Shown piece by piece: positions 9,534 to 58,083 of a stretch of DNA of 60,000 nucleotides. This DNA comes from Bolinopsis microptera (Eukaryota > Ctenophora > Tentaculata > Lobata > Bolinopsidae), in contig NC_087081.1 of the NCBI RefSeq assembly GCF_026151205.1, forward strand, positions 6,445,246-6,505,245. The letters run 5' to 3'. Position numbers and translations under genes: made by a program. How positions within the stretch are numbered: position 1 is the first letter of the stretch; every line of letters begins with the position of its first letter. The notes beneath the pieces were generated by a model. The model had not been told where the DNA came from, did no database searches, and saw nothing but the letters and a program-made list of their open reading frames with translations.

Positions 9534-9586
9534 ATTGACATTAATTGACATTAATTGACATTAATTGACATTAATTGACATTAATT
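9534..9586. repeat. TTAATTGACA tandem array
   Basis: Direct tandem 10-mers, part of the left terminal repeat of the MITE starting at 9460. The mirrored array is at 12,850-12,917, and the same arrays lie at 49,150-49,215 and 49,808-49,890 in the second copy. Confidence 0.9.
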
Positions 9587-28800: not shown

Positions 28801-31800
28801 TTAAACGAAACTTTAGAATTACAGACAAACTAATTAACCTAATTGTTCCAGTTACTAATTACACATCTAATTACCTGTCCGTCACCCTTAGTTCGCTCAG
28901 GGAGGTAAGATTTGGGGGGTCCTTCTCCGTCACTAGCTAGTCCTGGTCTGTAGATCACTGTAATGTAATGGTATTATGAAGGAGTAATGTAATGGTATTA
29001 ATAAACTAGTCCTGGTCTGTAGATCACTGTAATGTAATGGTATTAATAAACTGTAATGTAATGGTATTAATAAACTAGTCCTGGTCTGTAGATCACTGTA
29101 ATGTTACCATGGTTACTACTAGTTACCATGGTTATGTAATGTAATGGTATTAATAAACTGTAATGTAATGGTATTAATAAACGTAAATTAAGCTTTTTCC
29201 ATACATAACGATTGATTAAACTTCAAATAATAACTGAAACCCAATAAACATACCATAAATAAATAAACAATAATAATCAATTAAATTTTAACAAAATGAA
29301 GCAAACAATTACCAGTATCAGCAGATTCCTCTCCAGTGGAGGTAGCAGACGAATATTCCTTCTCCCGCTTCAGCCTCTGTAGTTCACTCCTCTTAGCTGC
29401 CGGCAGATGACGCATATAAAGTCTAGTAGCCAGGTTAAGAGTGATACCTATAGCTTGGTAATCTTTAGGACTGTGGGTTATGTGACCAACCGACACGATG
29501 TGGGTTTTACTCTGCATCAGATTGTGGCGGAGTTGGACGAACGTTTCGAAGAATTTGTTCCCCGTCGTTTGGGTTACGTCCTGGGAATATGTTAATGTTA
29601 ATTGGTTAATTGGTTAATTATGTACTGAAAATTGATTGGTTGATTCTTATATCGTGTTATATTGGGTTGGAACCTCAGAAATCACCGCAGAGACACTTCC
29701 AGCATAGTTCTATTATTCAATTGTAAACATATTTTAAAAATTTGTTATTTAATTACCTGCAGCCACTGCCAACAAAGAACGTTGGAATTATCGTTCTTGC
29801 GAATAGGAGTGCCCACATCAATGAAAGTCAGCATACCAAAGTTATCCTTGTTCTTCTTTTTAGATTTAGACTTGGAGAACGTCATGTTTATTATTAGAGC
29901 CTGAAAATGTTCAAATCTTTAAAATAGAGAAATTTCTTGAAAAAGAGATGTAGGTTTAAGATTTCGATAGTAATTTATAAAAGCAATCGAATACCTAATT
30001 ATTTAATAACTAACCACTAATTACTAATCACTAATTACTAATTACCTCGTCGTTAGGATGCTCCCGAGCAGGCAGAGTTAAAGTCAGTTTATCCAAATAC
30101 TTTCCCAGATCCTCAGATTTAGAGATAGTTGCCGGGGAAACAAACTCACTCAGCGACTTCTGCTCGTCTAATCTAAGAGAGGTGACGTGAACAGTGTTAG
30201 GTCCACACTTGCTTCTGTCATCATCTCCCAGCTTGTTTAACCACGTGACAGCGGTCGGGACCAGTCCTAGACTTTGGGTGGAGTCACGTGATCCGATCAG
30301 AGAGAATTGGCGACCTGGGGAGGAGGGATTATAAACTGGCTTACTGTGAGTTGTTACAGATGGTTAAATCAAAGGAATACCAGAATGTGTTGGTAACTCA
30401 AACTTACTGTTATGGTAACTATAAGTATAATGGTAAATTACCGAGAGAGTTTTTGCCGAAGGTAACCACGACAACGGATCTGCCGTGTAGAATAGCAGGG
30501 AGAACATCAGACAACATAGAGGAACACACGTCTATCTGCTTACTTTGGGGACCTGTTAATTGAATGTTAATTAATTAGCTAATTAGGGGTGAAATGTTAA
30601 TTAAGTTTTTGTGTGAAACGCAACAGCAACATCTCCAAGGAAGCTTGGAACGGGCTATTTTGTGGATATTTAGGCGAATGTTTTCCCAAATGCCCCAGAG
30701 TTGGAGAAATAAAGAATGCAAAAATAAATTGGGGATGAAAAGTAAATGATTAATGATTATTACCGTGAACGTAATCAAAGAAAAGAGTCTCATTAGCGAT
30801 TAGAACAGTAGATTTTCCCTCATCTACTGACAATATAGACTCCTTGTTCTGCGGGTTTGGACTAATCCTCATACCTACTTTAACCTGACATGGAACTTGG
30901 TTAAATCATGGTCTCAAAAGAAACAAAATTTAAAACATTACTTGATAAAATGGGTAAAGCGGCTAAATAACACAGGTTGGTTGGTTTCAAGACCTGGAAA
31001 GATGGGTCGGGTAGCTTTAGAACACACACTACCCACCCCTGAAACACATAACCCGTCATAACATCACTTATATGTTTCTAAACCCACACTACTCACGTTG
31101 TACGCATAGTTGTCAGTAGCGCGGCTACCCTCGGTGTGATAGGCGCGCAGGAGCCCCTGCGGAGGAGGCGGCGCAAACAGCCTCATCAGCTCGGCGTACG
31201 TCAGCGGGCGTTCCTTCTTCCGCTTCCTGAACATCTGCGATGCCCTAAAGGAAGGAGGGGTTAGAAATTGATGGTAAACTGAAAGAGGTTGCTCTGTTGG
31301 GGAGAAGGGTTTAGAATATGGTTTTAAACTGTCAGAGGGCTGCTGCCGAAACTATGTGATTTTAATGAGAACGGAGCCTTTTAGTTAGGTCATTAAAGTT
31401 AAGTTCTCAGTTGTGTAATAGGTTGACGACCAATGCCCATATAAGGCAATGACCATATTAGGCAAAAGACAAATGACCATACAAGGTAATGACCATATTA
31501 GGCAAAAAGACAAAAATCGGTAAGGAGAGATAATGCAGTTTTTAGGGAAGGTTCATTGCAAGAGAACTGAGCGGAGGAGTTATGAAAGAAACAGGGTACA
31601 CAAACTTAATAAGAGACCATGTCTACAAATTACTTCACATTACCATGGATATTTACTGTGCGACTCACACGATATACCTGTGATCAGGAGTAAGGGTGAA
31701 CTACCAATTAACAAATTAATTCAATAAAATGAGTTAAATTTAAATGATTATTATCTAAAGAAATCTTACTTTCTGACGATCATAGGAGTGTTATACGATC

Positions 31801-34800: not shown

Positions 34801-37800
34801 TGGTAAACAATAGGAGTGTTATACTTGTAACTAGTGACACTGTTAACTAATTCCAGTGGCGAGGGAGTGCATCTGTCGTTAAATTAACAGTAGTTCTAGA
34901 CAACATGTTTCAACACGTCATCAGGGAAATATTAATAACACGTTATCAGGGAGCTTACTTTTACTCGTGTTTGTAGGTAGTAATTTCTAGTTAGTAATTT
35001 CTAGTTACAGTTACTGTTTTCGTGTTTTTATAACTGTTATCAAAACGTTCCAATTTCTAATGAACTTAAGAGTTGTGACTCATCTCTAATGAACTTGCTG
35101 TGTACAAAATTGGAGAAAGTATTTGAATAGCAGACGGTCACAAATATCTCGACTTTCTTTTGCGAAGTTACTATCGAAAAATGTTTGCACGTGCAAAGGC
35201 GCTGCTCGTAATATTCCGAAAATCTAATTACTTTAAGGCTTGATTGATCATCCATAAAAATCGAATAATAAAAACAGGAAATAAAAGACGGAAATCAAGA
35301 CAAAACGGAAAGAATAAGGACTAATTAATACAGAAGAAAGTAGAGCGTTTATAGTGAAACACATCACCAAGTAAAGTATAACAGAGGGAGTGGAGAGAAA
35401 GTTTAAAACACTACAAGTGTAATTGGTAATATATTTTAAACACTGAACTGTATATATACATAACATATTCAACTACTATTTATGTACGTGACACAATGAC
35501 TGATAAAACAGTTAAAATTCGCTACAAACTCACTCAATATTTCCCGCTATCGGGCAACGAATGAGTGTTAAACTTCCAATCAAATAGTTATTTTAATATT
35601 AAAAGCTCGCAACATATACATCATACATGTTACATTTATCTACATATTACAATTTATATAGCACACTGATAAAATGAACATTGGATAACCTAGAAGTCAG
35701 AACACTGTACACACCAGACTAACACACAGATATCCCAGAAATATGAAACTCAGGAGAGGATAACAACGCCCTGTTAATTACATTAGATGCGCTTTTTGGG
35801 CGCCTCGGTAAAAATTCAGATTAAAGAGTGACAAATCATGGCTGAGAAGGGAACAAGGGGCGGGGGATATTCAAAAGTAATTAGTTTTTCAGATTGAGCA
35901 ACTCTACAAACTCCAGATAGCATACAGTCTAAATTCTAGTTAACTTTAGATTAAAAGTGACAAATCAGCACAGAGAAATGGGGGTAACCATCTCAAAACG
36001 AGGGACGAGTAAACTCAAAGTAATATTTAAAGATAATGAACATTTCAGGCTGAGATAATGAACATTTCAGGCTGAGATAATGAACATTTCAGGATGAGAT
36101 AATGAACATTTCAGGTTGAGATAATGAACATTTCAGGCTGAGATAATGAACATTTTAGGTTGAGAGCAACCTTACAAACGCCAGCTAATCCAGTCTGAAG
36201 TGCAGTGCTACAATACTAAAACAGAACTCTAGTGCTACACAGAAGATGTCTGAGTACTGTGATAAGCTAGTAGTCAGTCTACACTGAGGAAGTCCATTAG
36301 ACGTGAGCACTTGGAATTACAGGTGTACATTGTTATACATGTGGAATATTCTAGATTAAATATTGAATTAAACACAATCGCAATGTAAGCCTTTAGAGAC
36401 CAATATTAGTAACTAACTTTACTACTTACATTATTATACACATATATTACATTAGTATAGTAGTTTATATTATAATAGTTATATATAATAGCAGTTATAT
36501 TATATAAGTATATACTAGTTACATGGCTAATATAATGGCTAATATAATTAATTGTGATGTCCACCTGACAACTGCACTAAACTAAAACACGACTCACAAG
36601 GCAGCGAGACTGTTGTTTATTGGCCGTGTAAGCGAGTAGTATTGAGCAACATTAAACATAAAGCTGTGTAGTTCATAGTGAGTAGTAGTGAGCAACATTA
36701 AACATAAAGCTGTGTAGTTCATAGCTAGACAAATAGTCTAGATATTCTACAGAAGTACAGGTCATGTTTAGTCAATGATCTAGTGTTTAATCTAGTCACA
36801 ATTACAATTTACAGGATGTGTACACTGTGCAACTACAAAGTGTGAAGGGACATGACAATACAATGTTAACAATATAACAAGACTGCGAAACATAAGAATG
36901 TGAAATAATAATAATAATTAAGGAATAAGAAGGTGTAAAAATACAGGAGGGAGTAGTGTACGGGGGCCCGGAGAATGAATAATAAAATGTAGCCATATAA
37001 CGGAACATTATGTAATGAACAGCCGTTATTCCGATGCGGCTAAACTTTCAACAACTGACCATTCTTAGAGCGTTATAACAGTCACGTGGGGCTCGCTGGC
37101 CAATCACGGGGCTGCATTCCAACATCTGGAGTGCAATCAATTAATGAATGTGCTAGTGGGACACTGCCTATGTCACGAGTATTCACGGATATCAAGACTT
37201 TATGTTACACTCGCGACTAGCAATGGCAAGCATAGATAAATTACATAATAATATTGGAATGAACGGGGGGCACTTTAGTCTACAATCTTACAATAAGATA
37301 CAGTCTGCAATAAATAGGGGAGGGTGTAATGTGGAACGTGAGGAATGGGACAGGAATGCGTGTTTTATGACATCATGATTATTGTAACTCATTGGTCTCT
37401 CTTATCGTACTACTCGCCTCCTTCTGTATCTGACCACAGCGGACTCCAGCATCGGGGAGCGAGGAGTTCTTGTCTAATCAGAGGGGAGGATTTATGGTGT
37501 TGTCCAATGAGAGGGGAGGATTTATGGTGTCGTCCAATCAGAAACGATTAATTGTGTCAGGTGATGATTAACAACCAGAGATGTGAATCCTGGATTGAGT
37601 CCAGTCTTTGATCTCGTGATTGAGAACTTCACTAAACGTTTCACACAAACAGCGTTTACGAAACCGAACTATAAAAACTTGTAAACTTCAAAACAACTTA
37701 CAAGAGTTGCTTCTCATACAATCTAACAATCAGAGTAAAGTAAGGGAGTTGTCCGCTCCAGGATGTTACAACTAATTACTCAGTTAGGATACAAGCTAAT

Positions 37801-40800
37801 TAGTAGCCTGTTCTATGGGAATATTTAGACTAACTTGAAAATTAGAATTCTTAGCACCAAAATAGTTCACTTTTGAGATGACTGGATAATGGGGAAAATA
37901 GTCGTTGGTAAATTAAAATAGATGTGAATTAAGCATTATTAAGTTACTGTTGTAACCAAAGTAAATACGCACAACCCAATGGAACTTTAGCAACTAGCTG
38001 GTTACTGATTAACATCACCAAATAGTAACCAGCTAGTAACTATAGTAACCAACTGTAATTAAAATCTTAAACTTACCTCCTAGCGAGACTCATCACGACC
38101 CTTCAACAAAACAGTCTAACACACTAAACGATCTTAAACCTAAGACGAGAGAAACGTGTCCCGCGTAACTAAGAGTAATAGTAACAGATCACAGCATCAC
38201 AGCGTATAACAAGACACAAGACTTGTGTATAACGTAATATGAGAGTGAGAGGCCACCTGGGGAGGAGGATGAGGGGGGGGGGGGGGCTACAATAATAATA
38301 GGGAGGGGGGGGGGGGGGGGGGGGCTACAATAATAGTACCCGGGGTCCCGGGGCAGGTGCTACACTGATTATATCAGGATTATGGTAACAATAACAAGGG
38401 GGGATGTTTAGTGACGGTGTTATAACTAGGGGGTTGTTAGGTGTGGGGAGGCAGTGATGCAGGAGTCATTGTACGAGTCTGGCAGGACTATTCATACAGG
38501 CTCTCGATTAGAGGTCGACCGCGGGTGATGCAGGGGAGATTGCAATATTTGGAGCCCTTATCGGCCCTAATATAATTTGGACGGACCTAATTATCAGTGT
38601 ATGGATAATGCAATTTGGATAGACCCTCGATTGTAGGACGGACAACTGGAACTAAGCAGGTACTTTCTTTCTTTAATCTAATATGGAGCCGAAAACGTTT
38701 AACAATTTATTTGAGTATGCTTAGAGAATGGTTATTTTTAAACTGTTGAAACACCAAATACACTAAATCATGACAAGAAATAGTCAGTGAAACGAGAATT
38801 AAACAATGACTTACCATGCTAGAGGATGTTCAAGATGCATGTACGTTCAACTATTCTAATAAAAAGGTAAAAACAATGAGGAGAGACGCTCAGCAGCTCA
38901 CTACTACAAACACTACAATCACCGGACCAAGGTGCAGGACTCTGGCGGGTGTTTCAAATATGTGTCCAGTATGGTGTTACCATGTAGGAAGCAATCACAT
39001 CAGATTGCTTGAGTGTCCCGCGGTTAATCTAAGGAGATGTTAGAGCCGTGATTGGACCATTTACCTCAAGGTGGCAGCTGATTGGAGGACATGCAGGCTG
39101 ATCTGCGCGCTGATTGGTTGACAGAACTGATGACGTCATACCACGTGACGCACAACTATTGGTCGTACTGATGACGTCATACCACGTGACGCGCAACTAT
39201 TGGTCGAACTGATGACGTCATACCACGTGACGCGCAACTATTGGTCGGTGAGATGCAGGGAGCTAGCTCATGATTGGTCCCGTGGCACATCACGTCGTGT
39301 AATAATCTGTTGATATGCAGTGCCGAGGGGCTGTTTTTCGGGAAGCTTTGCGGTCCAAGTAATATTCAGCATGTAATTGAATAATGCACAGGTCAGCCGG
39401 ATTTTATTACAGCTAGTAGAATGGAAATTAATCTTTACGGACTGATTACACTCAACTTAACAGCATCAAAGAACTTTAATTATGCCGAAAACAGGACATC
39501 AAATCTAAATTCCAGGGCTGATATATTCTTCAAATGTGAAGAAAATTCACAGCTAACTTAGTTATTTGCTAAGTTAACTTAACTAACATTTAACAGAACA
39601 TTTAAAAAGTTATAACTAACAAAGAAACTAACTTGGCAAAGAAAGATCCGTCCTTCTGAGGGGTTGCTTTAGGATCAGGAGTAGAGCTAGGAGTGGAGGG
39701 AGTTGACTTGCTGTCCTTCTTCCGCTTTAATCTGGAGGAGAACCTGGAGCTCTCTGTTCTTTTGGGAGGGATTGGGGCTAGGTCTGTGATAGTTCTGAGG
39801 GGAGATGGAGTTGTTAACCTCGGGTTTATCAACAATCAGATCGAATATACAATATTATAATATGAACTTATCATCCCCTAAAAACAGTTTTAATCTTATA
39901 AACCAACCTGTTAGGAATATGAAATTTACAATATAGATAAAATGACCTGTTAGGAATATAAAAGTTATAACATAAATAAACCAACCTGTTAGGAATATCA
40001 GCGGGTGGTACAGGAGTTACGCTGGGTTCAGGACCATGCCACGTGTCATTACCAGACATGTCGGAGGGAGCTGACACTGTGTTCTGCAGCTTGTAGATCT
40101 GGTCTGTGTGCCCGTTCATTATTGGGGGTCCACCTGGGGAGGAGGGGGTGTTAGAGGGGTGTTACTAGGGCCAGGGGTGTTACTAGGGGTGTTACTAGGG
40201 TGTTACTAGGGTGTTACTAAGGGTGTTACTAGGGTGTTACTAGCGTGTTACTATGGAGATGAGGTTTTGAAGGGTACTGAGCTGGTTTTTATATCCGGCT
40301 ACAGACGAGTTGACTGTTGAACACATTTACATAAAAATAGAATAATATTAAAGTATCGATATGTAATACTGACCATCGCTCAATTATGTTGAGAACTGTT
40401 GATGTGTGTTTTGTGGTTTATCGTAAAGTATTAGATTTTAAATAAAGTAATAAGATCATTCAGAAAAGGTCCAGAGGTAGCATGAGTTAAGATCTAAATA
40501 TACGATCATTCAAGTTTTCAAGAAAGAGTCGTAATTCTAGCACAATACTAGGACAAACTTTTGTTCTGCAGTATAGATTTGATTTCGTAAGAAAGAAAAA
40601 TAAATGCATCAACATTCATTAGACGTGAAATAACGAAGGGTAAATTATATGGGAAAGACATTTCCTCGGAAAAATTAAAGTTGAATACGAAAAGATTTCA
40701 GTAAAAGTAGTGGTCATAATGTCTCAAATAACGACGGTAACCTAAACACCCCTCCCACTATACTCCATCACCTGTATTACAATCAGTACAATTTGAGCTT

Positions 40801-43800: not shown

Positions 43801-46800
43801 AATCTTCAGCCAGAGATATCATAAGTTTACCATGCTAAGTTGGATATTGTGAACACTTCTCTATTCCTCAATTTTTAGTGGTGTCATAGATATTACATCG
43901 CCACAAAATTTACTACAGATACGCTAAAGGGTCTGGGCCTTGTACTAGACAAATTCTCCAGACTCGTGATTACACTCACTGCTAACAATATCACGTGACG
44001 TGCACGCAAACTCGCGCGCTAAAATGCGCGCATTCAGAAGTGACGAAAACATATGTCACCCCACTGTAGCTATCATTAAACTGTGGTAATAACGGTATCT
44101 GAGTATATAATAAGACTAGATATAACATACGAGGGATAGCAGCCCAGCTGTAAGCTTCTACGAAACTGAAGTTACGATATCAAGAGAAACGCCACTTTAG
44201 GACTACATTACTTCAGCTATATATCTTATCAAATTTATGCTCTTTAACAAAGCCCCTACTACAGCGCTGTACACAATGGTACAATTTTTAAGTAACACCT
44301 TGTAGGATTTACAACTACACGTTGAATATGGTACTTTCACTGGTAAAAACGGTTTCTTAGCAGCCACACCCCACATCTTCCGTTATGGAGTATATTTTAC
44401 ATAATTTAGCATAATTTGAGGTACTATGACAAAGCATCCTGGTTTTTATTGAGTAGTATTTTCTAGATCTAGTAAGAATTACACACTGGTTAGTGGATCT
44501 ACCGTCGAAAACTATCAGTGCGGAGATTGAAGATGTTGATGAACAGGCCCAGGTGACGACTTTAAAAGTTTATCTGGACCGGCAAAACCACGTACGTTCA
44601 CATATTCTCACGATCACCCCGTAACCATGACAACGTTAGGGCACCACCACCAATCAAAACATCTGTTCAAATGACACTTCCGCTTAGGTGTCAGGGCTCT
44701 CTCGGAAGCGAGATAATGGTACAGACAATAGTTTTTACTGTGGAACTAGCCCCTGGAAGTGGAGCTAGACCCTGAAATCCAGCAGCTTATCAGGCAGATC
44801 TAGCTGTCTTGCATTTCCTAGCTTTGTATTTAGTGGGCTTACAATCAGCTCCATAATACAATTACTGTAGACTTTTACTGTTGGTATTTGAGCTAGCCTT
44901 TATGGATCTCTGAGCTCGATGATAATACCAAACGTCAATAAGGATCCGATCCTATTCCAAGAATATGTTCTAAACCATAGAATACGAAGAAGCTACCTCC
45001 TAGAATCTAGAGTAGCAGCTATATGCTATTAACCAACTCAGCTGTAAGCCTATTCTCGTATTGCTTATATAAGTGTAGCCCAGTCTACGATAGCAGCTTT
45101 AAGTGTAGCTCAGCCTGCACCGTCACCTATAAAAGGTGTTAAAAGCGTGCACTAGCAGCCACTAGCTGCTGACACGGTGCAGAATTTGCTGGTAGACACT
45201 ACTGGTGTAAATTGTAATTATTTGTGTCGATGACGACTGTACTATATTCGCATGAGAGTGAAATGTTACTGCAAGCCGACATAAATACACCCAGGCAAAC
45301 CAAGCTATCTGCAAATCATGCAACCCCTCCATTTTTCAAAAAATCATGCTCGAAAAGAACCATCTTAACCCCTCCTTCCGGCTATCGTTAACCCCAAAAC
45401 CCCATAATTAAACCTCCAGGTAAACCCACTAATTAAACCCCTTGTGCCCCCTAATTAAACCTCCAGGTAAACCCACTAATTAAACCCCTTGTACCCCCTA
45501 ATTAAACCTCCAGGTAAACCCATTAATTAAACCCCTTGTACCCCCTAATTAAACCTCCAGGTAAACCCACTAATTAAAGTACACACGAAGTAAACCCCTT
45601 GTGCCCCCTAAACCCCCTCACCTTGAGAGCGTTAGTGAGTCTAGTCTCGTTCTCCCGTACAATGTTGACAGCCCCCACTCTCAGCTGTTGTTCTGTAGTC
45701 TCACAGTCCCCACAGTGGCCTGTACCGTTGGTTCCTGAGACCCACTCTGGGGAAGTCTGGGGTGGGAGGGCTAGTTTGTCTTGTACTCGACCCTTGTAGA
45801 AACCAGCCTGAAATAGTTAGGGTTAAGAATAGAAATGGGTTAGAGGGCTGAAATGGGCGTGTCATGATTACATTTCATTATGTTATCGCGTAAAACTTAT
45901 AGTTGGTTTGATTTGTATGTTGATTTGTTAGCGTTGGACTTAGATTATCATATTTGCTAAGTATCAGGAAAATTTGTAGCAATAGTCATCAGACCTCTAG
46001 GACACAGATAGTTTAGCGGGGAGACAGACAGGGAATCCCTGAATATAAAACCCGCAACTATACTCATTGCTTGGAATCTTAGGAATTTACAACTGATTGT
46101 AAGTGGTCTAGACCCCGAAATTGTGGAGAAGATAGACTCCGTTATCAGTATCTTTCGTCCCGAAACTCAGTTACATTTAGTGGAATAAAACCAATTAGGT
46201 GATTAGGGGTGATTACCGGAATTACTATATTAAATTTGAAGGAGGAGTTGTTACATTGTAGAGAGTCTGATTTTACACTGGTCACTGAGAGGAGATATTA
46301 TTGGGAGAGATACTGACTTTACAAACTTGTACTTTTATCCCATATGCAGGCCACAAGGAGTTGTGAGATCAGTTCCATCTCAAGAAAATATTAAATATTC
46401 CATAGTTCATACGTTAAGTTTGCCAGCATTCTCTTGAATTAAAATGTAGATTGGACAGTAGCCCAAGCCCCCCCCCCCCCTCGCCCCTCCAACATAGCAG
46501 CAGGGTGCAATATCCCCCACATAGAGTGAAAAAGTTAGCACCTGCACACCTGACGCTTAATTAGAGCGTGGGAAAGTGGGTGAGAGAGGTAATGTATCCT
46601 GGTATAATTGACAGATTCTGAATCTTAGCACCTCTTTAATTCGGATAAATGGTGATTATCGAGCTGCTATAATTTCAATTCGGATGGGAATTGTGTACTT
46701 GAGTGAAAGTGTGATGATTCGTGGGAAAATTAGTTTGAATTAGGCGACCTAGTGCCTAGTGGTGGTCGGTGGATCGTAACAAGACACATTATCAACTTCA

Positions 46801-49800: not shown

Positions 49801-52800
49801 CAAGACAAATTAATGTCAATTAATGTCAATTAATGTCAATTAATGTCAATTAATGTCAATTAATGTCAATTAATGTCAATTAATGTCAATGTCAGTTTGG
49901 GGGTTTTATGGAATACTGACATTAATTGACGTTGCATCACCCCCATCATAAATTTGGTAAATGTTAAATCCAACGGATTTTAGAAATTATGTCTTTCAAA
50001 TCACGTGACCATAACAAAAAAAAACTTTTACGCTTATTGTAGTTACTTCACGTATGGTTAACAGTTATGGTCGTGGTAATCACAAAGGATATTATCAGGT
50101 TTTAAAATATATGGTATCACGGAAATGACCAGATGTATATTATAGTAGTGTTGAAGGTCTGGCGGGAATGTTGCTCCACTGTTATACAGCTCACTTCCTG
50201 TAGGACAACTGGGCCATCTCTAGGAGACTTGGCACTTTGCCAGGGATTGTTTGGGGATTAGACATTTTGTCAGGTATTGTTAGGTACACTGTGAAACATT
50301 TTCACATTTTGGAAATGATGGAAAGTAAGCCAAACACTGGAAAGTGGAATACAAACTGTCAGTTCACAAAGAAGGGAGCTTACAAACTAAACAGGCACTG
50401 ACAAAATGTTACTAAAATCAGAAGGGAAAGCATGGACAGACTGTTGAGGTAGTGACTTAGTGAAGGGTCAAGTAACCTCCTAGCTAAGTGTGGAGATTGT
50501 TCGTGTTAAAAGACCGTACAAAGGGAGCTGCCAACTCATCAGTAAAACATGACGGGTCAGTCAAACCTACTGGAGAACTCTGAATTCAAAACTGAGGCAA
50601 GCTCCTGATTATTATGTTCTTAAGCAGAAATTTAAACCGCTACCAGACAAAAATCGGCGTCGGACCGACTTTAGGAGACAAGAAAACCAGGCTAACAATA
50701 TGTGAAATCAAATAACTCCCAAATCGACGATAGCCAGATGGCAGATGCGTTTAAAAGTTTAAAATACGTTTAAAAGTTTAAAATACATTTAAAAATCGCT
50801 GAAGACAGAAAACAACTAAAGCAGCTATAGACACCGTTTTAAACAAACGCTGAGAGATTTTCTAAATTTCACACCAATAATTACTGTTGAAACCAGACCT
50901 CATGCATTTGGTAGGATTAAGATACGAGATACCTGTTCTTGTGGGAGGGACCCGGATCAAACAATAATTGGTTTAATTAAATCAATTAACTAATTGATGG
51001 CACACGTCGAGTTTTTGAGGATTCCCACGGTAAGGTTCGGCTGAAGGTTAGAACAAAGGGAAGGACAGAAGTTAGTATTGTAAAATAATGACTGTTACTT
51101 ACTTTCTTTAGAACTACAAAGGTTACTCTCGTAAAATAATTAATGTGAGGTTCGTTTTCTTTTCCCTGATTTCAAATTCGTTACAGTACATGGTTTAACT
51201 CAAACACTTCAGTACTTACCTCAGACAGCAGAACAATGCTTCCAATTTTTCAGAATGTCAATCCTGTCCAAATTTTACAGTTGTCGATATTTGAGTCTGG
51301 ATTCAAGTATTAAATTACCCTCAGGTGTGTGGGATGACGTGGTAAATATTTGAATGGAAGGAGTTGTAAAAATTTGAATATTGGAGAGATGACAGAATTT
51401 CTCTGGTTGTCATGGTAACGGCGAATGTGCAGGTGTGCAGTACGTGGTAATATGGTAACATTTATTGTGCTAACTTTGTTAAAGTTAGACATATATATAG
51501 CCTTATAGGCTAATGGAGTGGCAGGTAGAGTGGGGGGGGGGGGGGACTTGGTCTCTTTACCATCAAGATAAACTTTGGTACAAACGTTGACCGTATCCAT
51601 GTCCGTCGACTCAACACATTTCTACCCAATAGATGGCTACGATTTTAAATTTATAAGGGTCATCATAAGACGGCATATTTCACATATCAGACTCATTAAT
51701 GAATTTAGACAGTTACTTGAATTTCTGACGGCAATACCCTGACCTAAGTTTCACAGAATCAGATCATTGGCATGTTCACCTATTGAGCACTGTGTTTAAA
51801 TTGCCTCAAAACATTTTCACTCTGCTGAAGGAATGACACTTTTTCTTCACCTTCATAAACCACAACCATGAGCCGACAGGTTTGAAATATTCAAATTATC
51901 AACACTGATTGGCTGCTAGCTTGAACTGCGCGCTCTGGTTGGTCGCGAGTTTAAATACTGCAATCCGATTGGTTGCAAGGATGTATGTCAGCTACCACTC
52001 TAGGAAGATGGCATACACCGGAGTTGTATGCCAGCACATCACGTGATAGAATCAACTGAACTGCCAAGCAACGAGGTGACGTCACGTGCGTTACCATGGT
52101 GACATGTGATGCCCTGATCACGTGATTTTCAATTATAGTAGTTGAAGTGTACATCCCCTTTGGTGTGTTGCTGGCGCGGGGGAAACAATAACTGCCTCTC
52201 TCTCTCTGGTACTATGTTATACTTACACTTACAAGATAAATATGAGCACAGCTGTCACCTGATTCCGAACACGGGGTATAATTTCAGGTATATTTTACAG
52301 AACCCCTCAGGACCGGAACCACACAGAAAAACATGAAACTTTCGCACGCAATCACGATCTGTGATTGATCTGTACTGAGCGCGATTGCACGGTTGATTTG
52401 GAGTAGAAGAAAGGGCGGTAAGATGGTTGGTGAAAGTACTGAGCTTTACAAAACGTTTGTAAGTAACTTGATTATTTAACTCACCCTATGGTTGGTGAAA
52501 GTACTGAGCTTTACAAAACGTTTGTAAGTAACTTGATTATTTAACTCACCCTATGGTTGGTGAAAGTACTGAGCTTTACAAAACGTTTGTAAGTAACTTG
52601 ATTATTTAACTCACCCTATGGTTGGTGAAAGTACTGAGCTTTACAAAACGTTTGTAAGTAACTTGATTATTTAACTCACCCTATGGTTGGTGAAAGTACT
52701 GAGCTTTACAAAACGTTTGTAAGTAACTTGATTATTTAACTCACCCTATTCTCTGAAGAAGGAGGGGATGTAAGGTGGGGTGACATTGGGTCACTTGGGT

Positions 52801-55800
52801 TGTTATTACTGTTCGTACTGGCTGATAGACTGTCCTGGGACGACCCCTGGAGCACCCTCGGATCAACCGGCCCGACTTTGGATCCTGGCAGTGGCCCAAA
52901 CGGGGACGAATGGAGGGGATAACTCCCTGTACCGTCTATATAAGGGTTAAAGAGCTGCCTAGCGTCCATCTGATCCCGAGCTAGAGACTCGTATGAGCTG
53001 GGAGAGTAGCTGCCTGCTTCTCTCTGGGAATCTGATATTATCCTCCGCTGGGGGTTACTGTCTGTTTCTGAGATGTTGTTGGAGGAGCTCTGGGAGTGGG
53101 AGTCTGAGGAGGGCTGGTAGAGTTTGGTTGCTTGGTCACGTGACTTGGGTTCGGCTGAGTAATCGTAGGTGATTTTACTGGGAGCTTGGGGTCCTCGAGA
53201 GGAAGTGGATGTTTTGGAGGTGGCCTCGCTCTCTGCTCGAGAGCTAGGACGAGAGCTCTGTCTGGAGTCCGGACTTTTTACTTCGGACTTTTTGGCTGAT
53301 CTGGAGTCTGGTCCGGAATGGTAACCGGATTTTTTAGCAGATTTTTTAGTTGAGTCTGGTCCAGAATGATAACCGGACTTTTTACCAGATTTTTTAGTTG
53401 AACGAGAGTCTGGTCCAGAATGGTACCCGGACTTTTTAGCAGATTTCTTGGCTGGGTGGGAATCTGGCCCAGGATTTAAGTCTGGTTTCTTGGCTGGACG
53501 GGAATCTGGCCCCGAACCAGATTTCTTTGCAGAGTGTGGGTCTATTCCGGAATTAAAGTCTGAACGAAAATCTGACATGGGATTAAATTCTGATTTCTTT
53601 ACTGAACGGACATCTGATTCGGCCTTACTGTCTGATTTCTTCAATGAACGGGAATCAGGTCCCGAGTGATATCCTGATTTCTTTCCAGAACGAGAATCTG
53701 GCCCCGAATGATAGTCAGATTTCCTTCCGGAGCGAACGTCTGGCCCCGAGTGATACCCGGATTTCCTGCGAGGATTTGGTTCCGCGGCCTGCGTATAACT
53801 CATCTTATTTGACCGTCCAAAGTCTGAACTTTTTGATTTTCTGACACGGAAATTACTACTGATTGAACTGAGAGCAGATTTAGACTGATGTCTTTCGTTT
53901 GGCTGCACATCAGCACTAGAAAAAGAAACTGAAGACTTCTTACTAGGAGCTGTGGAGCTCCTGTTATTACTGGAAACGGAAGAAATCTTAGTCAAACTAG
54001 ATCTGGAGGACGACAAGCTCTTCAAACTAGGATCCTTGGTGTCCTGAGACGGCATAGTGTTCTCACAATCAATACCTGACAACGTATTCAACAGGTCATC
54101 AAACTGCTTCTGCGAATCCTCGAATCCCTGCCTGATATTCTGCTTCATGCCACCGAATTACATTGAATCTTGACCTCCTTTAAAACAAATAAGAGTAAAA
54201 CTAGCGATGAGGTTAAGTTAAATCAGAGTGAAGTTTGATCTCGGAGTATGATGTTATGTCTAGAGGAGGAGAAATGTAACTGTATAAGTGTGACTTAACA
54301 ATGTTATGGTGAGAAAGAACAATAGCTTAACGTGACTTCATATAATTTCTAACAAACTATTCAATGTCAAGCAGACAAAATATACATTATATTACAGTAT
54401 CTATAAGAGTTAAGGAGAGTTTATAGCCATGCAGGTTGAAGACAGAGCTCATGCTACATGGGAAATTTATCAGTCTTCCGGATCACTTCCTATAGACTCT
54501 AATTTAAGTTGATTCTGTGGCAAAATCGGCTTGAAAAGCTAAACCGATGAGATGACACTAACACAAAAAATTTCAAATAAATCTGGAAAGAATGTAATCC
54601 GGATTAGATCCTCGATAGTAAAATCCGGAACAATCCGGAACCGGGAAGTAAAGTAACCGGAAACAAAGACAGACGAAAGATTAACTAAATCTAGAACAAA
54701 CACACACCGGGATCTGCAGACAGAGGACAAAATATGTATGAAGTAATGTGTAAAAGCAATCCAGAACAGATCCTAAGTGATGAAATCTTCATTAAATCCG
54801 GAACAAAAACGATCCTGGAAGTAAGTAAGAACAAAACTGAACAAACCCGGACACAAACCCGGACACAACCCCGGAACAGACACAGAAAGTAATGTGCAGA
54901 CTCCCCAGAAACAAGAGTCCCATAACATAATCCACACAACAACACTGATGACGAGTTACCAAGTAACGGCCAATTAGACTGTATATAAAAACTCTCCCAG
55001 TCTCTCTAGCTCCTTCCCTCTTTCTCCTCTCTTCTCCTCTTTTCTTCTTTCTCGCTAATGTTTTACGAGACGTTGAGAGCCGGAATATAGAGCCGTTATT
55101 TAGGAAGCAGGTAACGGTAAAAACGGGGAACTAACCGCGGCTTCGTGGGAAAAAGGAGCAAATAACAGGGCAAAAAATATGGGGTATTATGGGAGACGAT
55201 GATGTTATGAGGAACTATGAACAATGAACAAAGGTCGTCAGTCAAATACAGGTTTTTCGTGTAGACGATAAAGACTAAGTCATAAACACTCTCCTAAACA
55301 CTATGTTTACAGTTTAAACACTAGCCTTATTTCATGAATACTATGTTCAAAACATGGTCACCTCTCCAAATCTAGGGCGTGGAGAGAAGGTGGTATCAGG
55401 CACGGTGCTACGGCTTTTTGAGCTCAAATTGGATAAACTGGTAAAGAAATGTTGTAGAAACGAGAGAAATGTTGTAGAAACGAGAGAAATACTCGGCAGT
55501 TTAAAATGAAGTAAACTGTAAAACACTAAACACTATGACGCGTTCAAAACATAGGTCACTGGTATGGGTCGAACACGTGATGTAAATTGTACGGTACCAC
55601 GAATATTTGAGTACTAAATGGAATGACAAACGATATAAACTGACGGAGAACTCTGAGTCCTGAGAAAGAGCCAAATCGTAAACAGAACACTAAATATAAA
55701 ATTACAGCGGAGAGAGCAGAGAGAGAGAGAGAGAGAGAGAGTGAGAGAGAGAGAGATAAAAGAGAGAGAGCGAACAGAGCTCGCAACGGAGAAACAGATG

Positions 55801-58083
55801 AAAAACCGACAAAAAAAATACCGAAATAAAGAGAAATACTGAAATGCAGCATGAAACTATTAAAAAATCAAGACGTAAACAGAACAGTCAGAAATAAAAT
55901 ACCGCGAGAGAGAGAGAGCAGAGAGAGAGAACGAGAGAGTATATTGAGCACTAGAAAGAGTCCTAGACCAGTCCCGGAGTGCTAGAAACCTAATACTGGT
56001 GCACCACGACCACACTGTGCCACCTGAACCTCTAATTGTATATCTAGTTGTAGAGGGGAGGTGTGGAGGGTGTGAAGATATAGGAGGGAGTGTCCAAACA
56101 CAAGGATATGTTTTTGAGGATAGATTAATTAATGAGACAGAGAGTAGGGGGGGGGGGGGGGAGTTTGAGGAGGTAATTGTATGCTTGACGAGTACTTAGA
56201 GTTGCGAATTAAATAAGTGTCTTGGTGTGTGTGCTGGGTGTGTGGTTGGTATGGTTACAAACCGAGGTGGCTTGTTGATGAGGTCACGTGACTTGAAATA
56301 TGTCGTCATGGTAACACGTGTCAGGATGGTAAACTACTGGAGAGTGGAGGGTAGTGGTGATATCACCTGGATTTCCAGGTGGCCTGTATCTCTGACAAAC
56401 AGGATGTGATGTAATAATAGAGCTCTCTTTACGTTCTACATCTACTTTACTCTATTTTGGGCCACCTCAGACGGTGATCTGGGCTATTTTTGTCCTCAAA
56501 GATTGAGACATTTGTCCAAATGTTTCTGGGACAGATTTCTCTATATTAAGACGCAATGAAACTATATAACGTGCCGATACATTTTAAATTTTTACCAAAG
56601 ATCTACAAGATCTTGCATCTGATCCTCCGGCATTAGATCTTGCGACGTTTAAAATAACAGGATGTCCAGTCCCCTTACCAGAACACCCCCCCCCGGCCCC
56701 TTACCAGAACCCCCCCGGCCCCTTACCAGAACCTTAAGTAGAACAATCACAAAGTGCTAGTAGAAGCACGTTAGTAAGCAGTGCATGTTCGTGTAAGTAC
56801 AGAGCTCCAAAAGGAGCTGAACGACAAGGTTATGAATAATCAGCGAGATTAGTGATTATGGTAGGAGGGAATTAGATTAAAAGGGACTGAGAGAAATTTA
56901 ATTAAAGAATTAAAACAGCCGGTCCGAAAACCAATAAAACTGCTCAGTGGTCACTAAGTCTGTTGATTATTGCGCTATCTTTGTCAACAGCCCAACTTTA
57001 CAATATCAGACTAGCTGACTGAATGATTCATAAGAATGGCCACATCCACAGTGAACGCTTCATTCTGAGTATGTAATGAGATAACCACCTAATTAGGTAA
57101 TTAGTGGGTCGTTAGTGAAAAGGTTGGCCCGCTGTTTTGTTAGATATTCAGAGTACCCCAAATTATATAGAATTTATTGTTTTGTTGCCACAAGTATAGC
57201 TAATTACTTGTTAACTATAGTACGAGAGTATAATCTGTATACAAATTATTTTCTTAGCAAAGTCTAGCAGTGAAGTAGGTAAACAAAGCTATTATATCAT
57301 TAAGTCATTACCGGACCCGTAAGGTTACCACTACGTAGACCTTTAAATTAATTAAATACCCAACTTCTATTGACTTGTTGAGTATCTTTAATTCTACATG
57401 TAATTGTAAATAAATGTAAATCTTCTTGGAGGCGATTTGTTTTGACACGTGATGCGCCTCCCCAACATAAGCTAGATCAAAATATTAAATAATTAATTGA
57501 TTAATTAATTAATAATTAATTAAGTAATTAATATTTACTAAGTAATTAAATAATTATTAAATAACTAATTAATTAACTAATAGTAATTAATAGCGGAATC
57601 TTACCGCATCAGGTTTCTCCTCATTTTTAGTCTTCAGAAAGTGCACTACAAACAGTTTGGTAGCTTGCTGCTTCAGTTCTATCAGCCTCTTGTGGCATTT
57701 CTCACACATAATGTTGATTGGACGTGTTTTATCTGCTATAAACAGACCCTCCTGGAATAATAACATTTAATTATTGATTAACTAATTTGTTAATTATGCT
57801 AGTAAATAAGTTATTGTCAATCAATTTACAGTGTTATTAAACAAGTCACCTTTTCCAAACATTGCTAAAAATGCAACAATCTAATAACCGCTAATTGGTC
57901 GGTAAATTCGTTAACTAATTATGTTAATTAAATTTATTGAATATGCTAATTAAACATATCTATTATCTAATTACATACCATCTTGACGGGTAGTTTGTCG
58001 ACTGCTTTGTTTTTAACAGGATCCTGCTCGTTTATGTTGATATCCTGTACTTTCATGATCTCACACCATGTCTCATATACTAG
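25708..58083 (-). CDS. KIF26-like: KIF26/VAB-8-like divergent kinesin, whole gene (22 traced coding exons)
   Basis: Traced exon by exon on the minus strand; frame is kept at every junction but one. Protein order: CxxC region (57.6-58.1 kb), Ser/Lys-rich repeat exon (52.7-54.1 kb), second CxxC segment (45.6-45.8 kb), linker exons (39.6-42.5 kb), basic pre-motor exon (31.1 kb), motor fold (29.3-30.9 kb), disordered tail (26.6-29.0 kb), coiled coil (25.8-26.4 kb), C-terminal end. Motor motifs follow the KIF26 pattern: FGKNSLGRQ where other kinesins have a GxTGSGKT loop, SRDSTQSLGLVPTAVTWL, and LTFIDVG in place of DLAGSE. Family proteins bind microtubules, lack normal ATPase activity and act in axon guidance and adhesion signalling (known for KIF26A/B and VAB-8). 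Traced length ~1,840 aa, like human KIF26A. Upstream exons may be missing. Confidence 0.88.
25999..26209 (-). CDS. KIF26-like: KIF26-like exon 21, coiled coil with unresolved start
   Basis: Open frame LINRNLKLCNDSFDQLTSVI, then QQIRILERRNSLIEKLRRKQ, ending TDWKPD at a consensus donor GACT|GTAAGT, phase 1, which fits exon 22. Upstream, the only good acceptor (CTTTCAG at 26,221) is followed in the phase set by exon 20 by four codons and TGA. See finding. Confidence 0.7.
26308..26427 (-). CDS. KIF26-like: KIF26-like exon 20, coiled coil
   Basis: 120 nt, phase 0 to 0; acceptor CTGTTTCAG, donor CAG|GTTACT. EKKRVVQEVEELYLDQLYEE then VQEIEQLVQHKMQWRGAVQ. Heptad-like hydrophobics suggest a coiled coil. 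Confidence 0.82.
26637..27328 (-). CDS. KIF26-like: KIF26-like exon 19, long disordered tail
   Basis: 692 nt, phase 1 to 0; acceptor TTGTTTCAG, donor CAG|GTGAGT. Features LYTIYDTEDDGAVLDQFLDE, SKSGYKSDSG, EISREWLQKIKKKRQTPPTG, KFIDYGPIDFSEKP, RSGYSTDAP and SSGYQSDGP. The conserved-looking WLQKIKKK...FIDYGPIDF block may be a short binding motif. No globular domain. Confidence 0.87.
27860..28021 (-). CDS. KIF26-like: KIF26-like exon 18, helical basic segment
   Basis: 162 nt, phase 1 to 1; acceptor AAATGTCAG, donor CGAG|GTTCGT. PPKRRQTSKTAQTAEDVRQK, RVQKNQQQLKRYFELLRLKN. Probably a single charged helix. An ATG overlapping the acceptor is not needed, since frame agrees with exon 17. Confidence 0.78.
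28192..28362 (-). CDS. KIF26-like: KIF26-like exon 17
   Basis: 171 nt, phase 1 to 1; acceptor CCTCTGTAG, donor GTTG|GTTAGT. TRPVAPQQQPTTSHQPSRSR, then YALTDSEDLRHTSG and FASDTENLTGVHV. Disordered, with more SD/TD motifs. Confidence 0.82.
28535..28712 (-). CDS. KIF26-like: KIF26-like exon 16, GYxSD motifs
   Basis: 178 nt, phase 0 to 1; acceptor TTTTTTCAG, donor CACA|GTGAGT. Carries NYSDTEEARKPRLPTGYHSD and GTGYASDGGSYKPSL: three motifs of the repeated type in 59 residues. Confidence 0.85.
28875..28957 (-). CDS. KIF26-like: KIF26-like exon 15
   Basis: 83 nt, phase 1 to 0; acceptor CATTACAG, donor CAG|GTAATT. IYRPGLASDGEGPPKSYLPE. Contains a GLASDGE variant of the GYxSD motif. Confidence 0.8.
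28938..29104. repeat. 69-bp tandem repeats spanning exon 15 acceptor
   Basis: CTAGTCCTGGTCTGTAGATC followed by ACTGTAATG occurs with acceptors at 28,957, 29,026 and 29,095 (period 69). Extra TAATGTAATGGTATTAATAA units continue to 29,182. Minus strand: CATTACAG|TGATCTACAG is present three times. Confidence 0.9.
29313..29580 (-). CDS. KIF26-like: KIF26-like exon 14, end of motor and neck
   Basis: 268 nt, phase 0 to 1; acceptor TATTCCCAG, donor ACTG|GTAATT. Reads THIVSVGHITHSPKDYQAIG, ITLNLATRLYMRHLPAAKRS, then EYSSATSTGEESADT. The closing L..A.R followed by a Ser/Glu-rich stretch matches KIF26 (Tyr-Thr-Ser..GGES type). Confidence 0.9.
29757..29900 (-). CDS. KIF26-like: KIF26-like exon 13, switch II region
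   Basis: 144 nt, phase 0 to 0; acceptor CATTTTCAG, donor CAG|GTAATT. ALIINMTFSKSKSKKKNKDN then FGMLTFIDVGTPIRKNDNSN. LTFIDVG stands where canonical motors have LxLVDLAGSE, so D and G remain but the Glu is lost. Confidence 0.9.
30046..30314 (-). CDS. KIF26-like: KIF26-like exon 12, motor core
   Basis: 269 nt, phase 1 to 0; acceptor CTCCCCAG, donor GAG|GTAATT. GRQFSLIGSRDSTQSLGLVP, then TAVTWLNKLGDDDRSKCGPN, then an acidic stretch ending LPAREHPNDE. The S.QSLG.VP.A..WL pattern is diagnostic for KIF26/VAB-8. The expected GKS/GKT of the ATP loop is GRQ, and the canonical switch I SSRSH is absent. Confidence 0.92.
30442..30552 (-). CDS. KIF26-like: KIF26-like exon 11, motor up to ATP loop
   Basis: 111 nt, phase 1 to 1; acceptor TTAACAG, donor CTCG|GTAATT. 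GPQSKQIDVCSSMLSDVLPA, ILHGRSVVVVTFGKNSL. VxxGxxxxVxxFGxxxxG is the kinesin sequence leading into the ATP-binding loop; here the loop begins GKNSLG. Confidence 0.9.
30764..30884 (-). CDS. KIF26-like: KIF26-like exon 10, motor strand 1
   Basis: 121 nt, phase 0 to 1; acceptor CATGTCAG, donor CACG|GTAATA. VKVGMRISPNPQNKESILSV through TLFFDYVH corresponds to the kinesin opening (VxVxxRxxP ... FxFDxVF). Confidence 0.9.
31097..31244 (-). CDS. KIF26-like: KIF26-like exon 9, basic pre-motor segment
   Basis: 148 nt, phase 2 to 0; acceptor CTTCCTTTAG, donor AAC|GTGAGT. Encodes ASQMFRKRKKERPLTYAELM then RLFAPPPPQGLLRAYHTEGS. Strongly GC-rich (many GCG/CGC codons) compared with its neighbours. Confidence 0.85.
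31770..31783 (-). CDS. Candidate alternative first coding exon
   Basis: ATG ATC GTC AGA AA|GTAAGA: 14 coding nt, phase 2, fits exon 9 and gives MIVRKASQMFRK. Independent of, and parallel to, the MSLARR exon at 38,077. Very short, so frame agreement could be chance (1 in 3). Confidence 0.4.
31955..32171 (-). promoter_or_regulatory. Second internal promoter candidate
   Basis: Four minus-strand CCAAT boxes (ATTGG at 32,079, 32,109, 32,139, 32,167; the last two inside a 28-bp duplication) and CACGTG at 31,955. It lies ~170-390 bp upstream of the candidate exon at 31,770. Confidence 0.5.
36033..36165. repeat. 22-bp tandem repeat, six copies
   Basis: GATAATGAACATTTCAGGCT plus GA repeated head to tail with few changes. 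No spacers, so it is not CRISPR-like. Confidence 0.92.
38077..38139 (-). CDS. Candidate second exon with internal start codon (motor-only isoform)
   Basis: Strong acceptor (CTCTCGTCTTAG) at 38,140 and consensus donor AG|GTAAGT. Contains ATG AGT CTC GCT AGG AG (38,077-38,093), phase 2, which fits exon 9 exactly and gives MSLARRASQMFRKRKK. This would start the protein just before the motor. Confidence 0.6.
38271..38325. repeat. Two poly(G) tracts in a duplicated segment
   Basis: Two copies of a G16-20 run followed by CTACAATAATA. Likely slippage products. Confidence 0.9.
38815..39030 (-). other. Candidate noncoding first exon of an internal transcript
   Basis: Ends in a strong donor AGCATG|GTAAGT (donor just below 38,815). 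The start is inferred from the promoter cluster at 39,041-39,285. If its terminal ATG is spliced to 38,139 the frame stops after one codon, so it is treated as 5' UTR. Confidence 0.45.
39041..39285 (-). promoter_or_regulatory. Internal promoter region: CRE, E-box and CCAAT array
   Basis: Three perfect-to-near-perfect 41-bp repeats (39,126-39,248), each with TGACGTCA (CRE), CACGTG (E-box) and ATTGG (minus-strand CCAAT). Four more ATTGG boxes flank them (39,051, 39,081, 39,113, 39,272). CCAAT orientation and position point to minus-strand transcription into the exons at 38,815 and 38,077. Confidence 0.65.
39633..39794 (-). CDS. KIF26-like: KIF26-like exon 8, basic linker
   Basis: 162 nt, phase 2 to 2; acceptor CCCCTCAG, donor CAA|GTTAGT. 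Reads TITDLAPIPPKRTESSRFSS, RLKRKKDSKSTPS and ends DGSFFAK. The basic stretch followed by SFFA precedes the motor in KIF26 proteins. Confidence 0.8.
39904..40000 (-). repeat. Three 39-nt tandem repeats each carrying a splice donor
   Basis: CATATTCCTAACAG|GT recurs with donors at 39,986, 39,947 and 39,908. Period 39 nt is a multiple of three and the frame stays open, encoding units ending FYIPNR and FHIPNR. Confidence 0.88.
39986..40133 (-). CDS. KIF26-like: KIF26-like exon 7
   Basis: 148 nt, phase 1 to 2; acceptor CTCCCCAG, donor AACAG|GTTGGT. Encodes GPPIMNGHTDQIYKLQNTVS through PPADIPNR. Its donor is the first of three tandem copies (see 39,904-40,000). Confidence 0.8.
40134..41713 (-). 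other. Intron 6
   Basis: Contains GTGTTACTAGG tandem repeats (40,148-40,255), TGTTTGTCTG-type simple sequence (40,940-41,110) and a two-copy AGTAAAGGTACCAG (41,399). No coding exon seen. Confidence 0.6.
41714..41899 (-). CDS. KIF26-like: KIF26-like exon 6
   Basis: 186 nt, phase 1 to 1. Acceptor CTACACAG keeps frame (DQVKPPRPRLQPSR); the next AG, five bases in, would not. Ends EGEYEFVDEFMLA, an acidic-aromatic patch, then donor CAG|GTGATT. Markedly GC-rich for this window. Confidence 0.75.
42158..42536 (-). CDS. KIF26-like: KIF26-like exon 5, disordered linker
   Basis: 379 nt, phase 0 to 1; acceptor TTATTTTCAG, donor ACG|GTTAGT. Starts SVKSQRATSGYRSDSVLGPS (one GYxSD motif) and ends in Pro/Asn/His/Gly-rich sequence. 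No fold expected. Confidence 0.8.
42749..42829 (-). CDS. Candidate alternative first exon or extra exon
   Basis: 27 codons beginning MRMQRNRA and ending KSFSTQDLGDREIEIWVDK, in phase 0 at AAG|GTTCCT, which matches exon 5. Composition is convincingly protein-like, the donor is weak. CCAAT boxes lie ~400-450 bp upstream. Confidence 0.4.
43393..44065. mobile_element. MITE with CAGTGGGGTGACATATG ends
   Basis: Left end TACAGTGGGGTGACATATGT, right end its reverse complement ACATATGTCACCCCACTGTA, with TTTTCGTCACTTC continuing inside on both sides. CAGTGGGG ends fit a hAT-like element. Flanks TAGTAGTAG and GCTATCAT show no clear duplication. No transposase. Confidence 0.75.
45404..45600. repeat. ~46-bp tandem repeats next to exon 4 donor
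   Basis: Four copies of CCTAATTAAACCTCCAGGTA followed by AACCCACTAATTAAACCCCTTGT. Each carries CCAG|GTAAAC, but on the plus strand. Confidence 0.9.
45622..45807 (-). CDS. KIF26-like: KIF26-like exon 4, second CxxC segment
   Basis: 186 nt, phase 0 to 0, acceptor CTATTTCAG, donor AAG|GTGAGG. Reads SPEWVSGTNGTGHCGDCETT; W.SG..G.G.CG.C is a KIF26 pre-motor signature. It is GC-richer than the intron around it. Confidence 0.85.
46870..46923 (-). CDS. Candidate alternative first exon of the KIF26-like gene
   Basis: ATG opens MPMFQYRSLSVDRLGFYQ and ends at TATCAG|GTAATG in phase 0, which fits exon 4 (phase 0 start). No acceptor keeps frame upstream, so it reads as a first coding exon and not an internal one. 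The prediction rests on frame, donor and composition only. Confidence 0.45.
48316..48400. promoter_or_regulatory. CCAAT and CACGTG cluster
   Basis: CACGTG twice, with GGGCCAATCAGAG and GAACCAATCAGAG between and after. Resembles the clusters ahead of the candidate first exons elsewhere in this gene; CCAAT here is in the plus orientation. Confidence 0.35.
49136..49944. mobile_element. TTAATTGACA-rich MITE, copy 2 (uninterrupted)
   Basis: 809 bp, ends GGGGGGAATGCAACG and CGTTGCATCACCCCC, perfect 8-bp flanking duplication ATCATAAA (49,128-49,135 and 49,945-49,952). It is the reverse complement of the element at 9460-12931 without the inserted piggyBac-like DNA. Its TTAA at 49,247-49,250 is the empty site. 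Confidence 0.92.
51905..52125 (-). promoter_or_regulatory. CCAAT and CACGTG cluster
   Basis: ATTGG/TTGG boxes near 51,909, 51,938 and 51,968, plus CACGTG at about 52,041, 52,082 (overlapping a GACGTCA half) and 52,119. Orientation of the CCAAT boxes is minus. No matching first exon was proven downstream. Confidence 0.4.
52425..52749. repeat. Five perfect 65-bp tandem repeats spanning a splice donor
   Basis: The unit GGTTGGTGAAAGTACTGAGC and the next 45 bp is repeated five times at exactly 65 bp. The last five bases of exon 3 and its donor (minus strand ATAGG|GTGAGT) belong to the unit, so the donor is present five times in series. Confidence 0.95.
52745..54148 (-). CDS. KIF26-like: KIF26-like exon 3, Ser/Lys-rich repeat exon
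   Basis: About 465 codons, ending ...SSENR|GTGAGT in phase 0. The 5' limit is uncertain: either the ATG at 54,146-54,148 begins a protein (MKQNIRQGFEDSQ), or the acceptor GAAGCAG joins at 54,139 in phase 0 from exon 2. The central part (53,260-53,770) is an array of 13-17-residue units of consensus KKSGYHSGPDSRS, five near-perfect and several degenerate, flanked by Ser/Thr-rich disordered sequence. No globular domain. Both ends agree in frame with exons 2 and 4. Confidence 0.8.
53260..53770 (-). repeat. KIF26-like: Coding minisatellite, KKSGYHSGPDSRS units
   Basis: Tandem 40-60-bp coding units encoding SGYHSGPD (five times) and SDYHSGPD (once), spaced by K/S/P-rich linkers. Low-coordinate copies are more alike than high-coordinate ones, as if expanded more recently. 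Confidence 0.9.
54969..54990 (+). promoter_or_regulatory. CCAAT plus TATATAAAA, plus-strand orientation
   Basis: GGCCAATTAGACTGTATATA runs into AAAA, followed 30 bp on by a pyrimidine-rich initiator-like tract. It is the only well-formed TATA box noticed and points against the gene. No plus-strand coding sequence follows. Confidence 0.35.
57480..57590. repeat. TAATTAAT-type low-complexity DNA
   Basis: Irregular TTAATTAA words in the intron just downstream of exon 2 donor. Confidence 0.8.
57605..57751 (-). CDS. KIF26-like: KIF26-like exon 2, CxxC motif
   Basis: 147 nt, phase 0 to 0, acceptor TATTCCAG, donor GCG|GTAAGA. Encodes INIMCEKCHKRLIELKQQAT; CxxCHxxLxELKxQAxxL is the conserved Cys segment of the KIF26 N-terminus, which suggested the family assignment together with the motor. 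Confidence 0.85.
57979..58083 (-). CDS. KIF26-like: KIF26-like exon 1 (first traced)
   Basis: Reads LVYETWCEIMKVQDININEQ and on to DKLPVKM, phase 0 at both ends, acceptor AACAG and donor ATG|GTATGT. An internal ATG (EIM) could start translation, but the in-frame residues upstream and the acceptor suggest earlier exons exist. Confidence 0.7.

Follow-up and report, generated by a model that had tools for sequence, protein, structure and literature searches.

A promoter-like array in intron 8 of a KIF26/VAB-8-like kinesin gene of Bolinopsis microptera as a candidate internal start for an N-terminally shortened product

In the analyzed window (the whole 60,000-nucleotide stretch of Bolinopsis microptera DNA), a dense array of CCAAT, E-box and CRE motifs lies within an intron of a kinesin-like gene, with two strong splice donors below it, which raises the question of whether this gene possesses an internal promoter for a shortened kinesin. 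A sequence-only reading had proposed such a promoter, joined through a small exon to exon 9 of the gene. Here, the host gene, the array, the splice sites and the predicted product were analyzed; the features are collected in Table 1.

Table 1. Positions of the modelled exons, promoter-like clusters (P1-P5) and putative short exons in the window.
Feature	Positions	Strand	Description	Basis
P1	59386..59560	minus	cluster of CACGTG and CCAAT about 1.4 kb upstream of the exon 1 start codon; donor 59,204 (3.8) downstream	
Exon 1, coding part	57979..58056	minus	MKVQDININ	gene model
Exon 2	57605..57751	minus	carries the first CxxC and the first half of the tri-helical domain	PF23081 across exons 2 and 4
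Exon 3	52745..54148	minus	Ser-rich, own ATG	frame reading
P2	51907..52130	minus	CACGTGACGTCA and CCAAT cluster; strong donor 51,219 (7.6) 681 bp below	
P3	48259..48400	minus	CCAAT/CACGTG cluster; no donor of at least 2 within 1.3 kb on the minus strand	
Exon 4	45622..45807	minus	carries CGDC and the second half of that domain	PF23081 across exons 2 and 4
P4	43010..43350	minus	CCAAT/CACGTG cluster	
Exon 8	39633..39794	minus	exon of the long form; weak donor CAA/GTTAGT, phase 2	gene model
P5	39041..39285	minus	promoter-like CCAAT/E-box/CRE array in intron 8	motif counts, densest of nine clusters
41-bp unit	39124..39247	minus	three head-to-tail copies, each CCAAT-N9-TCACGTGG followed by TGACGTCA	copies match the reference copy at 95-98%
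Putative exon 1'	38815..38990	minus	donor ATG/GTAAGT at 38,814 (6.45); ATG 38,840, phase 2	
Putative exon 2'	38077..38139	minus	ATG 38,093 (MSLARR); acceptor 38,139 (5.46), donor 38,076 (7.63)	
Exon 9	31097..31244	minus	common to long and short forms; in-frame ATG 31,234	acceptor 7.6, frame

The host gene and its start exons

The array is located within a KIF26-type gene encoded on the minus strand, from about 58,056 to about 25,710 of the window. The gene was modelled as 20 exons bordered by AG/GT, followed by two tentative terminal exons; in this model, exons 1 and 3 begin their coding part at an ATG, not at an acceptor. Exons 1-2-4 to 20, joined, encode 1,251 residues with no stop, and a likely exon 21 (acceptor 26,143, one of three open acceptors) together with exon 22 adds about 91 further residues. 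As its predicted protein matches the kinesin motor profile of Pfam and, at a borderline score, the tri-helical domain, the gene is KIF26/VAB-8-like (kinesin-11). The motor match (PF00225) reached 30.6 bits in a 782-aa partial model and 32.3 bits in the short form (cut-off 29.3), covering only positions 33-120 of the 327 of the profile, and kinesins of the PDB matched the kinesin reading as well (to 3.8e-05). The KIF26A/B-specific N-terminal tri-helical domain (PF23081) gave a specific but borderline signal, with 27.3 bits in a 264-aa piece of exons 2 and 4 joined (cut-off 27) and 25.1 bits (E 2e-05), under that cut-off, in the 782-aa model.

In motile kinesins, a loop of the GQTxxGKT type is found where FGKNSLG was aligned in this protein, and KIF26 proteins are non-motile kinesins that act in signalling. 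In the available part of PMC10585591, KIF26A is described as binding microtubules and unable to hydrolyse ATP, and the available part of PMC12646758 describes both VAB-8 and KIF26A as having no functional P-loop. The predicted protein resembles KIF26A, KIF26B and VAB-8 of Caenorhabditis elegans in its degenerate-loop kinesin motor and the long tail and, at a borderline score, in the KIF26A/B tri-helical domain. No relatives of the motor part were found in viral contigs (90-aa query) or genome contigs (87-aa query), which is the expected outcome for an animal gene there.

When exon 3 is read on from exon 2 via the sole scoring acceptor (54,177), a stop follows after ten residues, whereas from its own ATG the frame is open via exon 4 onward, giving 1,644 residues to exon 20. 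As exon 3 is unreadable in frame from exon 2 and open from its own ATG, it is probably an alternative start exon, and in that role it would be a precedent within this gene for varied N-termini. The exon (54148-52745, minus strand) carries repeats of the GYHSGPDSRS type, with an in-frame stop ahead of its ATG. A 65-bp unit in five perfect copies (52423-52749) spans its 3' end and donor.

The promoter-like array and related clusters

Intron 8, 8,388 bp in length, contains the array designated P5. ATTGG on the plus strand, that is CCAAT on the minus strand, occurs in it seven times (39,051, 39,081, 39,113, 39,158, 39,199, 39,240 and 39,273), the CRE palindrome TGACGTCA three times (39,131, 39,172 and 39,213; three of the five in the window) and the E-box CACGTG also three times (39,142, 39,183 and 39,224; three of the 36). 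P5 is the densest 250-bp segment of the window for CCAAT (7 versus a mean of 0.56 over 60 kb), with a CpG observed/expected ratio of about 1.1-1.3. The tandem copies of the 41-bp unit supply three each of its CCAAT, TGACGTCA and CACGTG motifs, and four same-orientation CCAAT boxes fall outside the triplicated unit. With two of the three copies removed, five CCAAT in one orientation remain in 240 bp, and at least five were reached in 18 of 300 shuffles; after this removal, the CCAAT clustering alone is unremarkable. As the collapsed density was matched in those shuffles, the case for P5 rests on the combination of elements, not on CCAAT alone.

The ERSE consensus, CCAAT-N9-CCACG, is bound by NF-Y plus ATF6. 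In the array unit, CCAAT, nine bases and TCACG follow one another three times, one base off that consensus, and this CCAAT-N9-TCACG spacing was found in the array units and nowhere else in the window. The exact ERSE was absent from both strands of the window, where three sites with one mismatch were present. Comparison of the region 37,001-39,700 with the window for dispersed repeats returned only P5's own copies, a short inverted repeat (37,984-38,046) and short matches due to low complexity or chance.

Clusters, defined as at least two CCAAT and at least one CACGTG in 200 bp, number nine in the window, and seven of them (at 31,930, 37,083, 39,050, 43,010, 48,259, 51,907 and 59,386-59,447) are placed within or just above the KIF26-like gene. 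Shuffled sequences contained 0.73 clusters on average and at most 4 (200 shuffles), and circular shifting of the CCAAT positions gave a mean of 2.5 and a maximum of 8, with none of 2000 shifts reaching nine. The observed number exceeds the shift control, and the CCAAT/CACGTG grammar is therefore not random in the window. One of the seven, P1, lies ahead of exon 1 and is likely the main promoter.

CACGTG itself occurs 36 times in the whole window, versus 1-17 times for each of 15 other CpG palindromes, often in TCACGTGA-like sites. The donor below P2 (51,219) has no open ATG, and the segment 51219-52130 (minus strand) may hold a further non-coding first exon. Under P4, at 42980-42690 (minus strand), the frame MRMQRNRAKSFSTQDLGDREIEIWVDK begins with an ATG and lacks a good donor; it is another possible first exon. 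A general link between clusters and strong donors was considered and is not pressed, as three of the nine strong donors (counted by eye) lie within 1 kb below a cluster on the same strand, only slightly more than a rough expectation of about 1.4.

Splice sites and the predicted short product

Splice sites were scored with a generic animal weight matrix, not trained on this species. The donors at 38,814 and 38,076, lying 236 and 974 bp below P5 on the same strand, are the sole donors of at least 6.4 in intron 8 and two of the nine in both strands of the window; at the window's donor density, two such donors in 1 kb have a Poisson probability of 0.0027. Among the modelled exons, donor scores range from below 0.5 to 8.4, most of them lower than those of these two sites. 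The array, donors, acceptor and ATG named in the sequence-only reading were all recovered from the minus strand of intron 8, in the order, strand and frame it had given, and its splice positions proved accurate to within a base (first intron bases 38,814 and 38,076; first exon base 38,139). The 5' end of putative exon 1' was placed at 38,990 by assumption, based on the spacing of CCAAT, and a longer form of putative exon 2' is offered by the upstream acceptor 38,256, which scores higher (7.42 versus 5.46).

Of 200 shuffled introns, two held a phase-2 cassette of acceptor, ATG and donor at thresholds 5.4/7.6; at 5.4/6.4 it was 0 of 200. Both threshold pairs were picked post hoc, with the sites already seen. 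Looser thresholds weaken the case: the same cassette appeared in 12% of 200 shuffles at 4/5 and in 50% at 3/3, and at 4/5 the observed two donors were reached in 0.5% of shuffles. An open ATG in phase 2 precedes 1,446 of 7,195 GTs within 300 nt (about 20%) and 1,132 of 7,195 within 63 nt. The phase-2 fit to exon 9, on which the proposal of the short form had leaned, is thus real and at the same time weak as evidence, about one GT site in five matching it.

Spliced to exon 9, both putative exons are in frame: exon 1' would give MHLEHPLAW-ASQMFRKRKK (from ATG 38,840) and exon 2' MSLARR-ASQMFRKRKK, as had been predicted for the latter. These open frames, joined to the shared downstream exon and extending through exon 20 (831 and 828 residues, respectively), are weak evidence by themselves. 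The MSLARR exon (38,139-38,077) fits in frame as proposed and is dispensable, because exon 1' can join exon 9 directly and exon 9 has its own in-frame ATG at 31,234.

The label of a motor-only isoform had to be abandoned, since the product would continue from exon 9 past exon 20 into the last exons and retain the whole tail, with about 920 of about 1,340 residues. The predicted short form is motor-plus-tail, without the KIF26 N-terminal domain (the first third). Kinesin-1 motors of the PDB aligned with the exon 9 reading from its residue 49 onward, which would put the start of the short protein about 55 residues ahead of the motor core. The claim that it lacks the CxxC and Ser-rich N-terminus stands as far as the missing N-terminal domain is concerned, and fails in treating the CxxC and Ser-rich parts, unreadable in one frame, as one N-terminus.

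Readings of the locus and comparison with known systems

A used alternative intronic promoter for an N-terminally shortened KIF26 appears to be the best reading of the locus, since order, strand and frame hold and the combination of a promoter-like array with strong donors is unusual for intron 8; we lean towards it, if only slightly. P5 joins promoter-like sequence to a putative first exon on the host strand, as judged from the letters of the DNA. From the elements, their order, strand and frames, and the gene family, we infer factor binding, a start site, splicing, translation and function. The array at 39,041-39,285 would be bound by NF-Y (at CCAAT) and by two further factors, one recognizing CACGTG and one of the CREB/ATF type, minus-strand transcription would start roughly at 38,990-38,950, and the first exon would end at donor 38,814. 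This exon would then be spliced either directly to exon 9, with the start MHLEHPLAW-ASQ, or via the small exon ending at 38,077, with the start MSLARR-ASQ. Both messages would encode a KIF26 without the CxxC/tri-helical domain, with the degenerate motor core and the tail. Against this reading, the assumed leader contains three upstream ATGs before MSLARR (four with acceptor 38,256) and one before MHLEHPLAW.

P5 may instead be an intronic enhancer of the KIF26 gene (or a start of enhancer RNA) that binds NF-Y, E-box and CRE factors and yields no stable KIF26 message. The seven clusters within or just above the gene exceed the number of first exons needed, and the two further clusters of intron 8 (37,083 and 31,930) have best donors below them of only 5.2 and 3.8; since these two are without a strong donor, clusters need not be promoters. 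However, the two strongest donors of the intron lie just below P5 on the gene strand, and no donor of at least 3 was found within 1.3 kb of P5 on the other side and strand, which makes the enhancer a serious but unlikely explanation.

Rather improbable is that P5 drives, on the minus strand, a nested gene or a long non-coding RNA that ends inside intron 8 and leaves exon 9 unused. In its favour, exons 1' and 2' are essentially non-coding, and the ATG in the best context (AGCATG at the donor) is out of the kinesin frame in both splice routes. Against a nested gene, none of the ten intron-8 ORFs of at least 70 aa reached the Pfam cut-off (three sub-threshold hits), and no Rfam family was found at gathering score in the window. 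Chance would mean that neither the 41-bp minisatellite, rich in CpG, nor the two good-looking splice sites have a function. This reading draws on most of the striking counts stemming from one unit copied three times, on the collapsed CCAAT count being reached in shuffles (18 of 300) and on the commonness of the phase fit, but it is the least probable of all, the four same-orientation CCAAT outside the triplicated unit and the cluster number and donor placement, both above their controls, speaking against it.

Under the internal-promoter reading, the proposed short form differs from KIF26A, KIF26B and VAB-8 in dropping the N-terminal domain and retaining the motor. The available part of PMC12533845 describes long and short isoforms made by vab-8, the short one without the motor domain. 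As far as that text goes, it is likewise a shorter product of a kinesin-11 family gene, but with the opposite truncation, VAB-8 short losing the motor. For ADGRB1/BAI1, the available part of PMC11711277 reports an alternative promoter in intron 17 giving an N-terminally shortened protein, documented by transcripts and chromatin marks. The arrangement described there is alike in that a promoter within an intron brings a first exon of its own, which is spliced onto a shared one, whereas here it is predicted from sequence alone. Among the papers listed for KIF26A/KIF26B/VAB-8 isoforms and promoters, we have not seen an intronic promoter described for a KIF26 form with motor and tail, which is not a claim of its absence from print. 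UniProt reportedly lists an N-terminally shortened isoform of human KIF26B, which carries no weight in the argument.

Taken with exon 3, the locus would admit a broader and tentative reading, somewhat doubtful in our view, of at least three mutually exclusive N-termini, each with its own promoter of the NF-Y/E-box/CRE type. Exons 1-2-4 would provide the CxxC/tri-helical form, exon 3-4 the Ser-rich form, and intron 8 the short form beginning just before the motor. If so, the N-terminal scaffold part of a non-motile kinesin would become uncoupled from the microtubule-binding part within one gene. If one promoter gives motor and tail without the N-terminal domain, comparing the forms would show the purpose of that domain. 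Since alternative promoters per se are common, the interest stays modest as long as RNA does not confirm several interchangeable N-termini.

Other repeats of the window include a degenerate TCC-type tandem repeat of about 1.7 kb (5250-6973) and two inverted pairs (9460-10140 with 49247-49944, and 10498-11083 with 12089-12685), the copies of which, about 0.6-0.7 kb long and 94-95% identical, are likely mobile elements.
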